From: Stachybotrys elegans
Taxonomy: Eukaryota; Ascomycota; Sordariomycetes; Hypocreales; Stachybotryaceae
DNA length: 64,000 nt
NCBI GenBank assembly: GCA_020746835.1
Contig: JAGPNK010000030.1
Coordinates: 62,001 to 126,000 of the forward strand
Reading direction: 5' to 3'
Part shown: piece after piece, positions 5,087 through 59,219 of the stretch
Layout: every line of letters starts with the position of its first letter
Numbering within the stretch: the stretch's first letter is position 1
Program-made: the position numbers and the translations under genes
The notes under the pieces: model-generated
What the model was told of the DNA's origin: nothing
Databases searched by the model: none
Seen by the model: the letters and a program-made list of their open reading frames with translations, nothing else

Positions 5087-6648
5087 TGTAAGTGCTGAGA
5101 GAGATTTCTCGAAAGTTTTATAGAGCGAATACCTAGGTGGATGTTGTTTCTGGAGTCCTGAGGAGCATGGAATCGCCATTCTGGACTTGCGATGTACAGC
5201 TCTTTTATAAGTCAATGCTAGAGAGGTTTTGTCAGCTTCTGGGACTTCATGAGCTTCAAGATGAATTGCAACTACTCGAAGGGGAAGTAGCAAGTTTACT
5301 AATTTAGCTGATCCGGCTTCCCAGACAATAGGAATGATTGCTAATGCTTGGATTATTCCAGATTAGGCAGTTGCTCCAAGTGCATTCGCCTAAGTGGGTA
5401 TAGATGAGCCTCGCGCACCGAGTCAAGCACAGAGTGAGCGGAACACATGTGATACTGTGAATACATGGCCTGATTGGCTACTCATTTACCTTTTAACCTT
5501 ATTGGTCTACTCAATTTTTTCCTGGACTTCCAGTGGCCTAGGCTTCAAAATCACCCAACTCTAACCCCGTCAATTTAACAAGGTTCCCAACATTCCACAA
5601 CAAGTATTACATCGTTACCTTACCAGTCTTGTCGTAAGGCTTTCTAGGTCTTTCATTATCTATGCTCTTTGAATCTCTTGAATACCGCCGTTCTGTCGGG
5701 GTTGAAGGGATCAAGCTGTTGGTTTGCGTACAAAAACACCTGAAAATAAGAAGCATTCATAAAAGCTTTTAGAATTGGATATTTGTTACTGCCCATTAAC
5801 ACATGCACTCGCCAAGATGCTCTCTGTAGAGCTTTGAACGCCAGGGGCACAAAGTTCATTCTTCGAGATAGGAAGAGGTTAAGACGCCCGCGCGCGCCGG
5901 CTATGTTTGTAAGATCGTGCTGCAGACGCTCATCTACGGCCTGCCGTGAGAGTAAGTCCAAGGACCAAGGTTTACAGCGGGCTATCAGAGTCAATGCACA
6001 TTGATATCTGCACTGATATGTTCCACATTCGGGTATAGATCCAAGCTCTGGAACTGCGGGTATTTCCTTTATTAATGCGCCGTCACACTTTCCGATCGTC
6101 GATATTACCTTGAAGCCGAATTCCAAGACCTGCCACATTAAAACGAAACAACCCCATCCACACACACACACACACACATCTACGAAATGGCCCGCTCCGC
6201 CACAAAGCTATGAAGACCGCAGCCCAGACCTTGCAACCGATATGTCGTATAGCAATTATAGAATATAGCAGGATAAAACATGCATTATTTTAACTCTCTC
6301 AAAACTAAGCATCTTCTTAAAGTCATTGATATCTATCCCACTAAGGCACAGGGTCGGGAAATCCCATATTCCTGCCGCTCTTGAGCTAAATACTTTTATA
6401 GCGCTAGTATATATAATATGAAATTAAGCCATCCAACGCCTAGAGCATTTGGACCTAGTCATGTTCCTCCCCACACTCTTGTCCACCATCATGCGGGTTA
6501 GCGGCTTGGTATTCGATTGAATGCTCCAACATGCGGAGGTAACAAGGGCAGGGGGAGTATGCTCGGGTTAAATAGCCCGAATGAACGACTATAAGAGCCG
6601 GTGAGGCCATATTCTTCGTGAAGTCGTAACTGCGCTTCGCTATCCAAC
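5087..6648. other. intergenic region with one doubtful ORF and a CA repeat
   Basis: A reverse-strand frame of 173 residues (5656-6177) begins inside a CA/TG dinucleotide repeat, which supplies its first residues, and has no recognisable domain. I leave it as doubtful. A TATA-like stretch (GTATATATAATATG) lies at about 6409-6421, some 230 bp upstream of the GH92 start. Confidence 0.35.
6158..6178. repeat. CA dinucleotide microsatellite
   Basis: A run of about nine CA units is visible just before 'tctacgaaatgg'. It creates the artificial MCVCVCG start of an open frame on the reverse strand. Confidence 0.8.
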
Positions 6649-9390: not shown

Positions 9391-9505
9391 GTGCAGCCAC
9401 AAGCCTTTCTCAAGCCAATTTTCTTACCAATTGTCGTCTATTGATTTCACATTGTCTTTGTCATGAGAGGGGGCCTCCTCAAGACCGCTGGTCTGTATCA
9501 CATTA
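9391..9505 (-). repeat. dispersed short repeat, copy 1
   Basis: The reverse complement matches the family seen at 17442, 26171, 27026, 45290, 56855 and 59066. It includes the segments GATACAGACCAG (here diverged), GAGGCCCCCTCT and the GGCTTGTGGCTGCAC end. It lies directly downstream of the GH92 gene and is more diverged than copies 6 and 7. No clear flanking duplication is visible. Confidence 0.7.
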
Positions 9506-17441: not shown

Positions 17442-17538
17442 GTGGGATTTCCCGTTCGTGTGCCCCACTGGGATACAGACCAATGACTTCAAGGAGGCCC
17501 CCTCTGACGATAAAGACGATATCAGATCAATAGATAAC
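17442..17538 (+). repeat. dispersed short repeat, copy 2
   Basis: It starts with GTGGGATTTCCCGTTCGTG and runs through the conserved core to AATAGATAAC, where similarity stops, so the 3' part is missing. It reads as WDFPFVCPTGIQTNDF and on through the acidic core without an indel. It lies between BBE and GMC relics. Confidence 0.85.
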
Positions 17539-26170: not shown

Positions 26171-26345
26171 TAGGATTTCCTATTTATATATCCTAATAGA
26201 ATATAAACCAGTGACTTTAAGAAGGCTTTCTTTAATAATAAAGATAATATTAAATTAATAGATAACAATTGATTAATAAATTTAATTAAGAAAAGCTTAA
26301 CTCTTATTGCTAAAGTGAATATTAAAGTTTTCTAGCTATCTGTAT
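26171..26345 (+). repeat. dispersed short repeat, copy 3 (RIP-like)
   Basis: It aligns with the repeat family, but most C are T and many G are A: GATTTCCCGTTCGTGTG becomes GATTTCCTATTTATATA, and GGGATACAGACC becomes AGAATATAAACC. AATAGATAACAATTG is retained. It extends past the usual end, sharing with copy 4 a tail like AATGTCAAAGTCT. Confidence 0.75.
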
Positions 26346-27025
26346 ACTGCAATTGCCTAGAAGATACTGCTGTGGTATTGGGCGCCTAGGGAAGGCTTTT
26401 GCCTAGTGACTTGATTAGAGCTAGATGTAGCTAGCTTTAGCAAGTAATGCAGTCGGGCGATGAGGCTTTGGCGAGTGATGTAGTCAGGTCTGCCGCGAGA
26501 CGCTAGCCATAATTATAGCCCTCTGTTCGTTGTACTACGCTCAGCTGCCCAGGTTGATCAGTATCGTTGGTGGCCCTTCTAGCCAAGAGATGAGAGGATC
26601 TGCGTAGGCTGTGGAAGGTACCGGCACAGCAATTGGTCGGCTGAACTTTGACATTGGGTAGAATGAAGTTCATTGGTATATTCGCCTCAACAATCATAAT
26701 TGCAATCAATGGCGCATTATTGATGATTTTGCTGAGTTCTATGAGGTTTCTGATTCCTGAAAGAATGTACAAGAGAAATTGTAAAGCTCTATCCAAGCTG
26801 AAGTTAATGGACTGTATCAATGGGAACAAGATACCAGGAAGAGGAAATGGGAAACCCATTAACGCCTGGATAAGCTTAGCCAATGACCGGTAAATCTGTC
26901 TGTAAGAATACTTACGCCGGTTATTTCCGAAAATGCCGGCTCCAGGCTAGTCAACTGCTATAAGCTCTAGGAGACCATTCGGACACAAGCCAAGAAATTG
27001 ATAGTCCACTACACGGTCTACCCCT

Positions 27026-27190
27026 GTGGGATTTCCTGTTCGTGTGCCTGAATGGGATACAGACCAGCAACTTCAAGTCGGCCCCTCTGACGATAAGGAC
27101 AATATCAATAAATAACACTTGGCAAGGAATCTATGGTTGTGGCTGCGGCGATGCCAATGTCAAAGTCTCTATATACCGCAATCAGTCCGG
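27026..27190 (+). repeat. dispersed short repeat, copy 4 (long form)
   Basis: It begins GTGGGATTTCCTGTTCGTG and continues past the core into GGTTGTGGCTGCGGCGATGC and AATGTCAAAGTCTC, giving one of the two longest versions seen. It has point changes and a small indel relative to copies 6 and 7. Confidence 0.75.
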
Positions 27191-43215: not shown

Positions 43216-45601
43216 GGGGGAGGGCAGGAGAATCGGCAGGCACGTGAGCAAGACCAGGGCAATGACGAGAAACGGGTAGTCAAAACCAAGTAAGCCTCTG
43301 ACTGATGTGATGGAGCTTTCGCTGATGAAGTTTAGGACTGAGACTACTGTTATAACATGAGCAGAAAAATGCAACTGCAAGAAATTCCAATGCATAGCTG
43401 TCAGCCGCTACCGTTACTTCAGGGACAAGGGGAATCTTGGCGCTAGCCAGACGTGCAAGAGATGGAGATGGTGACAGCCTTTCTAGTCAAAGCAGTCGTG
43501 AGGCTCTCGAGATATCCAGTAGCTGTGTGTGATAGGGGTCATGCTTGTAGGAACGTTATTAGATTTGTGAGAGAGCTCTTATGTCAGGAACTTGGTCAGA
43601 TCAGCGTGACAGTTTATTAAATACTCAGCTGGCCACGAACAGGAACCCACTTGTCTTGATGCTTCAGTAAATGAACCGCGATATGGCTGAGCTTGCTTCC
43701 AGTAACCAACAACGCCGCCTACAAAACTAATTTGAAATTCGATCATCTACAAATGCAGAATAACTCCTAGGCCGCACAGGTATTAATTAAATTGGAAGTG
43801 TCTTTGATTCGAGGCATCAAAACCACGGCGCTACTTGTGCAGTAGCAGATGCCCCCTACCCTAAAGATGACGGTGCAATGGGGAGAATGATGAAACAGGG
43901 CATAAAATGCGTAGTATTTTAAGATAAATAGCAATTAAAGTACTTGAGTTGTTTAGAAAGCAAAAAAAAAAAATCTTTTTATTAAAATATGTAAATAAGA
44001 GATGTGAGAGTGATTGTTTTGCGCGAGCATTATTTTCAAGACGCTTCTTCCCGTTCTTGGCATGACATTGCCACAACCAGTTACAAAATTACAACGTCAA
44101 GACCGCTGTTCCACACTGCGCCCGCAACTTTTTCCATCAAAGGCTCAGCAGGCTATTCTCTCCCTACCGTTGACTTGTCCCAGATACCAGTCGACATTCT
44201 CTGACGCCCCCATTCATCAACTTCCGACGCGTCGACAAGTTCAATTCTAATGTGTCCATTCGGAAATCCAGCGCCTACTCTATTCGTTGCTCGCCACACT
44301 CTATCTCATGTAAGCTGCTTCTACATGAGCAAAGACGAACAGACAGGCTGTAGTCTGGCCGACTGTAACAATCACCTACTCGCGATCTACTCGATCTAGC
44401 CCTGCAACGAGGTGCCCGCCAACATTGTTACTGTTGATTCTATCAAGCAGCCGGATTCATCTGACAAAGCTTGCCATTACCAACTAAACTGAAAAGTAGC
44501 AGGACATGGACCGCAATCATCCATACAGCCTAAAGGAAACCGATGGATGATGCCTCTGGCTACCTGAATCGAGTACAGACAGGGCAAGAATGGCGTACAC
44601 TGCATGATCTGATAACCCAAGCGCGCATCATGGCGTTCGAAGCGCCGCTATTCACGGCACTTGTTGAGAATATCCATGTGGAGATTGTAGCCGGATAGGG
44701 ACGCGCCGATTAATTGCACGTCCGGCACCAAGAGGCCTGAGATAACGAGAAGCTTGAGACAACTGATATTACATGAGTTGGATGCACCAACTTACAGCAA
44801 GGCAGTCGCTCAGTGACATGAGACAGCATTGAAGGCAGACTGAAGGGCAGGGCACTGGTTCAGCTGACGGGCCATTGAACTGAATAGTTCTGCTGATGCT
44901 ACTTGCTCGTCCACGAGGGCCCATTCACTATTGCCGTCCCTTGCCCGGAGGTGGAAAAACTTGTGATCTTGGCTGTGGCAAACGTCCACTTCCAGTTCGT
45001 CACCTACGACAATGTTCGGTTTACTCGTGTCGTTCCTCGCACTCTCCCTTACAAGCAACTTCCTCTGCCCCTTGTTTCTGCTGCTCGTCTGTTTCGATTC
45101 CGCTGTAAGAGCCAACGTTATGCCTTTCAAATCTTGGAAGGCATTACCCGAACATATAATCCTTGGCGAGGTCATCGAAAACATGTCTTTGATTTCTACC
45201 GAGAGATTGAAGAGGCGTAAGACCTTGGATAATATCATAACTTCCACAATGAATATCGCATCGAAATTTCACGCAATTTACGAGCCTGTGACATCCGCCG
45301 CAGCCACAAGTGTCAAGATTTTCTCAATCGAATTTTCTAACCAATTATTATCTATTGATCTGATATCATCTTTATCGTCAGAGGGAGCCTCCTCAAAGTC
45401 ACTGGTCTATATCCCATTGGGGCACACAAACGGGAAATCTCACATTGATGAGCCTGTAAAGACGGTTTCCATGAAGTTTGAGCAGTAAATCTAAACTTCT
45501 CTGCACTCTCTAATGCATGTTCCTTCTCCTTCATAGATGAGAGATTCCCTTGCCTACTTGCATCTAAGCAAGCAAACGGACAAGCTCCATCACAGCTCAT
45601 C
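43216..45601. other. gene-poor region
   Basis: A poly(A) run with AT-rich flank lies at about 43962-44000. A reverse frame of 145 codons (44810-45247) and a forward frame of 105 codons (44903-45220) overlap; neither has a recognisable domain and neither is convincing. A repeat copy lies at about 45290-45449. Confidence 0.4.
45290..45449 (-). repeat. dispersed short repeat, copy 5
   Basis: The reverse complement runs from GAGATTTCCCGTTTGTGTG to CTTGTGGCTGCGGCGGATGT, including the ATTGAGAAAATCTTGACAC segment. GAGCCTGT occurs on both sides (45282-45289 and 45450-45457), a possible 8-bp remnant of a target duplication. Confidence 0.8.
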
Positions 45602-56840: not shown

Positions 56841-56854
56841 AAGCCTACCATTAT
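56841..56854 (+). repeat. 14-bp flanking duplication, left copy
   Basis: AAGCCTACCATTAT, repeated perfectly at 56992-57005 on the other side of repeat copy 6, as expected of a target-site duplication. Confidence 0.85.
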
Positions 56855-56991
56855 GTGGGATTTCCCGTTCGTGTGCCCCAATGGGATACAGACCAGTGAC
56901 TTCGAGGAGGCCCCCTCTGACGATAAAGACGATATCAGATCAGTAGATAACAATTGGTTAGAAAATACACTCGATTGAGAAAAGCTTGACG
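56855..56991 (+). mobile_element. dispersed short repeat, copy 6, with 14-bp target duplication
   Basis: A 137-bp insertion begins GTGGGATTTCCCGTTCGTG and ends GAGAAAAGCTTGACG, between perfect 14-bp direct repeats. There are no terminal inverted repeats and no poly(A). It ends earlier than copies 4, 5 and 7, which continue into TTGTGGCTGCGGC. It encodes an open acidic peptide (CPNGIQTSDFEEAPSDD). It lies between the GMC and SDR genes. Confidence 0.85.
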
Positions 56992-57005
56992 AAGCCTACC
57001 ATTAT
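56992..57005 (+). repeat. 14-bp flanking duplication, right copy
   Basis: Perfect second copy of AAGCCTACCATTAT. Confidence 0.85.
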
Positions 57006-59051: not shown

Positions 59052-59065
59052 CATCTAGCTATCCA
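59052..59065 (+). repeat. 14-bp flanking duplication, left copy
   Basis: CATCTAGCTATCCA, repeated perfectly at 59206-59219 on the other side of repeat copy 7. Confidence 0.85.
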
Positions 59066-59205
59066 TGCCGCAGCCACAATCTTTTCTCAATCGAATTTTC
59101 TAACTAATTGTTATCTATTGATTTGATATCGTCTTTATCGTCAGAGGGGGCCTCCTCGAAGTCACTGGTCTGTATCCCATTGGGGCACACGAACGGGAAA
59201 TCCCA
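59066..59205 (-). mobile_element. dispersed short repeat, copy 7, inserted in a coding sequence
   Basis: A 140-bp insertion lies between perfect 14-bp direct repeats. Read on the reverse strand it begins GTGGGATTTCCCGTTCGTG after one base and ends AAAGATTGTGGCTGCGGCA, lacking the CTTGACAC segment of copy 5. The inserted length plus one duplication is 154 bp; taking out exactly that joins the flanking coding sequence in frame. Confidence 0.9.
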
Positions 59206-59219
59206 CATCTAGCTATCCA
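59206..59219 (+). repeat. 14-bp flanking duplication, right copy
   Basis: Perfect second copy of CATCTAGCTATCCA. Confidence 0.85.

Follow-up and report, generated by a model that had tools for sequence, protein, structure and literature searches.

Dispersed intronless repeats of Stachybotrys elegans traced to intron-rich source loci beside LINE-type reverse transcriptase genes

SINEs are derived from tRNA, 5S or 7SL RNA with a Pol III promoter, and fungal examples are known. Processed pseudogenes (retrocopies) come from protein-coding mRNAs; their introns have been removed, they are often 5′-truncated, and they carry a poly(A) tail and target duplications. The system closest to the elements described here is WEIRD/MINE of Magnaporthe, in which a non-coding RNA of ~1.1 kb is likewise copied by LINE machinery with 10–20-bp duplications. 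As described, MINE elements join a complete copy of the 1.1-kb non-coding RNA WEIRD to a truncated MGL LINE, with duplications of 10–20 bp at their borders (PMC2104539). No solo WEIRD source was found, for which the authors blame an incomplete genome (PMC2104539), and RT-PCR with WEIRD primers yielded several bands of 800–1100 bp (PMC3978060). The word “intron” occurs nowhere in the main text of either article, and neither main text mentions introns or alternative splicing. By that description, WEIRD is joined to a LINE, whereas the elements reported here insert alone with their own 3′ end; the WEIRD source is missing, whereas the source here is known and is split by introns.

The window analyzed is a stretch of 64,000 nucleotides (C24:62001–126000) of the 43.4-Mb, 61-contig genome of Stachybotrys elegans. 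A sequence-only reading of this DNA had proposed seven copies of a short mobile element. All seven were recovered by BLASTN with 56855–56991 as a query (71–100% identity), together with an eighth, weak fragment at 6320–6366 (plus strand) that holds the 3′ end only (79% over 47 bp). The copy at 56855–56991 (minus strand) is a 5′-truncated retrocopy of the last exon and part of the preceding one of a source locus on contig C3 (99% identity to the source exons), with one 53-bp intron removed by use of the alternative donor 635337. It is bordered by the perfect 14-bp target-site duplication AAGCCTACCATTAT at 56841–56854 (the 3′ side of the element) and 56992–57005 (its 5′ side). The copy at 59066–59205 (plus strand, 98% to the source) is also 5′-truncated and lacks two introns of 58 and 57 bp; its perfect duplication CATCTAGCTATCCA lies at 59052–59065 (5′ side) and 59206–59219 (3′ side). 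Both 14-bp repeats had already been reported correctly. Two introns are also missing from the copy at 45290–45443 (plus strand, 94%), where the 8-bp candidate duplication first suggested gives way, by eye, to a decayed 14-bp duplication with 2 mismatches (45276–45289 and 45444–45457, 12/14 match). The copy at 17442–17538 (minus strand, 97%) consists of last-exon sequence only, and the older copy at 27026–27150 (minus strand, 87%) has one gap relative to the source, without clean splice ends; a flanking duplication was looked for at both and none was found. The copy at 26171 had been given too short an extent: it runs to about 26478 (26171–26478, minus strand, 81%). This old, AT-rich retrocopy has a decayed 3′ end and six gaps that fall at, or close to, introns of the source. 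Its strong shift towards AT, judged by eye, resembles the effect of repeat-induced point mutation. An old fragment is found at 9400–9504 (plus strand; 78% identity by BLASTN, 82% over 87 columns).

Searches for further copies, as proposed in the sequence-only reading, show that the window samples a family of hundreds of copies in the genome. With the 137-bp copy as a query, the best 40 of 671 candidates were scored and gave 42 matches. The 19-base 3′ end, in sense CGAACGGGAAATCCCACAT, is present at 461 genome sites at no more than 2 mismatches (251 forward, 210 reverse), and its reversed control pattern at one. The copies are not parts of one large duplicated segment, since the flanks differ between the copies read. 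Many copies extend past 137 bp into one common sequence and stop at differing points. Because the longer copies share this sequence, GTGGGATTTCCC is the complement of the constant 3′ end and the variable end reflects 5′ truncation; the contrast between a constant and a variable end was correctly recognized, but the real sense is opposite to the one assigned. Nor is the element short: full-length copies elsewhere in the genome are about 1.0–1.4 kb, including copies of 1,014–1,060 bp (L056, L067 and L068).

The insertions have the hallmarks of LINE-type retroposition. As had been stated, there is no poly(A); the copies end in CCCAC immediately before the duplication, and the base following CCCAC is A in 36 of 37 copies and the next is T in 33 of 37. 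Of 37 non-redundant copies whose 3′ end is intact, 14 are flanked by perfect duplications of at least 10 bp; 20 of the 37 were taken from the best-scoring genome matches, with a bias towards young copies. None was found in the other 23, and none in 715 shuffled flank pairs. All 14 duplications are 14–17 bp long, and each starts with AT in the sense of the element. Copies of this family (family 1) that have duplications run from the 5′ part of the RNA to the RNA 3′ end only, with no fusion to a LINE.

In a search with extended sequence, the source was found through short matches at C3:636279–636582, a few kb from a reverse transcriptase (RT) match. At C3:633900–638200 (L061, L062), the ~1-kb element is present as short ordered blocks with other DNA between them. 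These blocks, of 13–225 bp, occupy C3:637486–635172 (minus strand) and are split by ~20 segments of 45–143 bp, most of which have GT-AG ends and CTRAY branch motifs. An aligner that charges a flat cost for any jump and has no knowledge of splice sites placed the copy L056 on the source over 1,012 columns (973 identical) with 20 jumps, as many as for L051. The alignment comprised 41 rows reaching the 3′ end; the window copies at 9400 and 6320 do not reach it and were left out, and four redundant rows were dropped (L013, L017 and L066 repeat L051, L055 and L056). The remaining 37 copies contain 223 jumps, among which 162 are GT-AG, 3 GC-AG, 1 CT-AC and 57 other. Among the 147 jumps in copies of at least 94% identity, the corresponding numbers are 123, 1, 0 and 23, and random jumps are GT-AG in 0.86%. 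We tentatively put the 57 other gaps, like those of the older copies below, down to decay, low-complexity regions and exons that are very short or skipped. With one copy per family counted, 53 of 62 GT/GC-AG introns have CTRAY within 45 nt of their 3′ end, compared with 8–16% of antisense windows and 26–35% of random sense windows. Identity to the C3 source is 100% over 131–172 bp in some copies.

A gene for a LINE-type reverse TRANSCRIPTASE (ORF2) lies upstream of the C3 source on the same strand; 928 bp separate its stop (C3:638414) from the start of the element. It contains one in-frame stop ahead of the RT part and may therefore not make enzyme now, despite the copies that are 100% identical to the source. 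Apart from one fragment of ~95 bp (C3:659950) and contig C14, which it matches at 66%, its DNA is single-copy. The genome contains 34 RT matches; among the 30 compared, only those on contigs C23 (L030) and C14 (L033) group with the C3 ORF2. The three share 35–44% protein identity over most of their length, against at most 33% over the main matched stretches for other LINEs, and fall in one 100/100 clade with the proteins P0001, P0002 (Trichoderma afarasin) and P0003. The latter three are endonuclease-plus-RT proteins, 34–36% identical to the C14 ORF2, which itself matches RVT_1 and Exo_endo_phos_2. By eye, and among frames of at least 120 aa, the ~3 kb preceding the C23 and C14 ORF2s show frames of host type but none resembling gag. 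On the strand opposite the C3 ORF2 and upstream of it, a 229-aa frame at C3:644131 (L081, plus strand) with zinc-knuckle-like CCHC motifs resembles a LINE ORF1 by eye.

The DNA downstream of the C23 and C14 ORF2s also matches dispersed, collinear short blocks. The two RNA loci lie 77 and 255 bp downstream of ORF2, respectively, on the same strand; they have 29 and 31 intron-like gaps and spliced copies of their own. For family A (source C23:213650–210276), 23 of 29 jumps are GT-AG in L070, 23 of 29 in L071 and 14 of 26 in L074, with no CT-AC. For family B (source C14:291404–287686), the counts are 23 of 31 in L077, 5 of 5 in L080 and 4 of 8 in L076. A further alignment (seven B loci and one A, with L080 repeated), in which the copies are mostly 79–86% identical and mostly older, gave 172 gaps: 91 GT-AG, 1 CT-AC and 80 other. 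The median exon lengths are 37, 29.5 and 33.5 bp, and the median intron lengths 57.5, 63 and 62 bp, for C3, C23 and C14, respectively. Duplications of at least 10 bp flank five of nine B copies (L077, 14 bp; L078, 15 bp; L103, 14 bp; L104, 16 bp; L106, 17 bp) and two of four A copies (L072, 16 bp; L074, 10 bp); L071 has one of 8 bp, and none was found in the remaining four B copies and one A copy examined. At no more than 3 mismatches, and with the source included, the 5′ end of the family is found at 67 sites for B and 4 for A. Family-B copies are clustered, with 10, 7 and 9 of the 67 sites at C1:385–466 kb, C4:0.4–62 kb and C34:1.815–1.886 Mb, whereas copies of family 1 are scattered across the listed contigs.

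Nucleotide comparison found no significant similarity among the three RNAs, and their 3′ ends have no common structure, all three folding no better than shuffles. The source loci have no flanking duplications of their own: over the 6.4–6.9 kb upstream, the 3′ flank recurs in stretches of at most 10, 8 and 10 bp, and none abuts the ends. Past the 3′ end point, the source sequence reads ATTATA at C3, and ATAA following CATC at C23 and C14; the alignment of four B copies and one A copy runs, at the 3′ end, 4–7 bases into the duplication. Together with the bases that follow CCCAC in family 1, these patterns suggest that the nicked target strand pairs with the RNA 3′ end.

It is also evident that the copies have a 5′ limit, which no examined copy exceeds. 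In family 1, a 0.7-kb query between the C3 ORF2 and the element was crossed by three copies, which start at 637477, 637481 and 637486; none of them reaches ORF2. In family B, 38 of the 40 listed exon-1 matches start at query positions 55–59 (291406–291402), two at 67–68 and none earlier, this list being the best 40 of 203 candidates, which may favor complete copies. Family A copies start at 213650–213652 (L070, L071, L074 and L072). By eye, TATA-like motifs lie 33–74 bp upstream of the three limits, their ends at about 33, 56 and 67 bp. At the 5′ junction of one B copy (L103), a single extra G stands between the duplication and the fixed 5′ start; in this one case it is possibly a copied cap nucleotide. 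We take the 5′ limits to be transcription starts, in which case the RNA would have its own Pol II start. The main rival is that the RNA is a long, intron-rich 3′ UTR of a LINE mRNA starting upstream of ORF2, so that the copies are 5′-truncated LINE progeny of the spliced mRNA with a preferred stop, or cleavage, just past ORF2. The RNA does lie on the same strand, 77–928 bp past the ORF2 stop, at all three loci, and family 1 has many 5′ truncation points. However, no examined copy extends into ORF2, whose DNA is single-copy apart from the ~95-bp fragment, the listed family-B copies stop at one 5′ position, and TATA-like motifs precede the limits. We therefore regard the 3′ UTR explanation as unlikely, though it deserves more weight than any other rival.

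A second alternative is that another, ordinary LINE mobilizes the spliced RNA in trans, the adjacency to ORF2 being non-functional. Multi-copy LINEs with long open frames are present in the genome (C22, C37, C38 and C16), and the C3 ORF2 carries a stop. Against this, the 3′ flanks of four such LINEs contain no sequence related to the elements, and all three loci of one RT clade show the adjacency, which makes mobilization in trans improbable. A search for the element tail at the RT loci first examined gave no match, because only ~1.5 kb past the RT domain was covered there. The 3′ flank of one multi-copy LINE (C22:23300–25700, L093) runs into CCTAA repeats that resemble telomere units.

We have further observed that differences among the copies correspond to alternative splicing at the C3 locus. 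A 4-bp difference between window copies reflects the use of donor 635341 or 635337 (13 and 16 copies), and a 7-bp difference the use of acceptor 635363 or 635356 (10 and 12 copies). Similar alternative site pairs occur at other C3 introns, and exon skipping is seen among the copies, e.g., 635936 joined to 635774. A probe over the last C3 intron identified five further loci (84–90%): L086 and L088 retain this intron but lack 3 and 4 upstream introns in the aligned part, and L087, L089 and L090 start in or at it. Since the indels between copies are alternative splice sites of the source, the elements are retrocopies of spliced RNA, an origin that we regard as close to certain. The full-length copies have no long reading frame in common and differ by 4- and 7-bp splice variants, so that a coding reading was rejected. 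The opposite course, in which introner-like insertions invaded the source and the dispersed copies are its intronless relatives, could draw on several C14-locus introns that are alike. It is contradicted by the coincidence of copy indels with alternative donor and acceptor pairs at many introns and by the intron-retaining copies, and the C3 locus has only one weakly similar intron pair (74% over 42 bp); we consider intron gain very improbable. The alike introns of the family-B source (C14:287686–289500, L084; up to 35 bp at 91% and 22 bp at 100%) suggest duplication of exon-intron units; no tandem repeats were found in the C14 3′ part. On the strand opposite the retroposed RNA (L061:764–1770 on C3, L051, L052, L054 and L056), a TATA-like box, (AC)n, an ATG, a GT-AG intron and a frame of ~70 codons were seen by eye, and the region is related at L054 and L056 (71–74% nucleotide identity); these features mark a tentative candidate for an antisense gene opposite the family-1 exons.

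A DNA element, whether a MITE or one mobilized by an integrase, would account for clean duplications and one constant end, but it is contradicted by the removed introns, the truncation at one end only and the 14–17-bp duplications, and has almost no chance of being correct. The sequence-only reading had left open a retroposed fragment or a non-autonomous element mobilized by an unknown integrase. The constant 3′ end, 5′ truncation, long duplications and, decisively, the absence of the source introns bear out the former; “non-autonomous” also fits, and the integrase is unneeded, given the hallmarks of target-primed reverse transcription and an endonuclease-bearing LINE RT gene adjoining each of the three source loci.

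The best reading, which we consider quite probable, is that a single-copy RT gene and the hyper-intronic template RNA beside it act together, the RNA being dispersed by target-primed reverse transcription. The locus C3:637486–635172 (minus strand) would produce a non-coding RNA of ~2.3 kb genomic span and ~20 introns, alternatively spliced to ~1.0 kb. A LINE-type RT, most likely encoded by the single-copy gene immediately upstream (ORF2) or by either of the two paralogues of this gene, would nick the target DNA. The nicked primer strand, ending in AT, would pair with the AU(A/U) that forms the 3′ end of the RNA, which would then be copied; early stops would leave 5′-truncated copies such as those in the window, and complete copying full-length ones. 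Joining of the second strand would then create the 14–17-bp duplications. The paralogous loci on C23 and C14 would act alike, with RNAs of unrelated sequence. That RT and RNA form a working pair is likely, as judged from three of three loci; that the adjacent ORF2 is the acting enzyme, and the details of priming, are our inference. Several results weigh against this reading: the gaps without GT-AG or GC-AG ends (a quarter of those in family 1), the stop in the C3 ORF2, the lack of a common 3′-end structure and the copies at which no duplication was found.

Such elements do not fit the described classes. Like SINEs, they are non-autonomous and dispersed, with target duplications and LINE-type insertion, but their source is a multi-intron RNA, and Rfam, with no match in the window or in ten source and copy loci, showed no relation to tRNA, 5S or 7SL RNA. 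In SINEs the 3′ tail is shared with a partner LINE; here, the four ordinary LINE 3′ flanks do not share the tail, and the RNA locus is itself part of the neighboring ORF2 loci. Like processed pseudogenes, the elements lack the source introns, are 5′-truncated and have target duplications; they differ in their hundreds of copies of one non-coding RNA, the lack of poly(A) and a source adjacent to an RT gene. A 5′-truncated LINE would share the constant 3′ end, variable 5′ end and 10–20-bp duplications, but its longer copies would extend into ORF2, which no examined copy does. As had been noted, they are unlike classical MITEs, with duplications of 14–17 bp against 2–10 bp and, by eye, no terminal inverted repeats. 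In introner-like elements the mobile unit is itself an intron, whereas the dispersed units here are exonic and the introns are missing. None of these five classes matches in every defining feature tested. A literature search, mostly at the level of abstracts, found no account of a LINE RT next to an RNA locus that is split by introns and has dispersed copies in spliced form.

A broader reading, which we put forward tentatively and with somewhat less than even confidence, is a fixed two-gene retro-system: a single-copy LINE-derived RT that does not copy itself and an adjacent gene for a dedicated template RNA with 20–31 introns and tiny exons. Since the source is intron-rich and the copies are intronless and without the upstream promoter, copies would rarely become sources; the system would stay at its locus while dispersing isoform-diverse spliced copies. 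Magnaporthe WEIRD would be a further case, its source undetected because it is split by introns. By our own reasoning from the published descriptions, an intron-split source would explain both the missing WEIRD source and the several RT-PCR bands.

These results connect a multi-exon non-coding source, and the RT next to it, with a repeat family that numbers hundreds of copies. One genome has this arrangement at three places, an indication that mobile elements may be made in a way not described before. Repeat annotation would otherwise class such families as unclassified repeats or SINEs. If this is true, the missing source gene of Magnaporthe WEIRD becomes directly testable, because exons of ~30 bp make a split source easy to miss when the contiguous repeat is the query of a similarity search. 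The dispersed copies would then be a fossil record of alternative splicing, and an RT gene could stay single-copy and yet reshape a genome.
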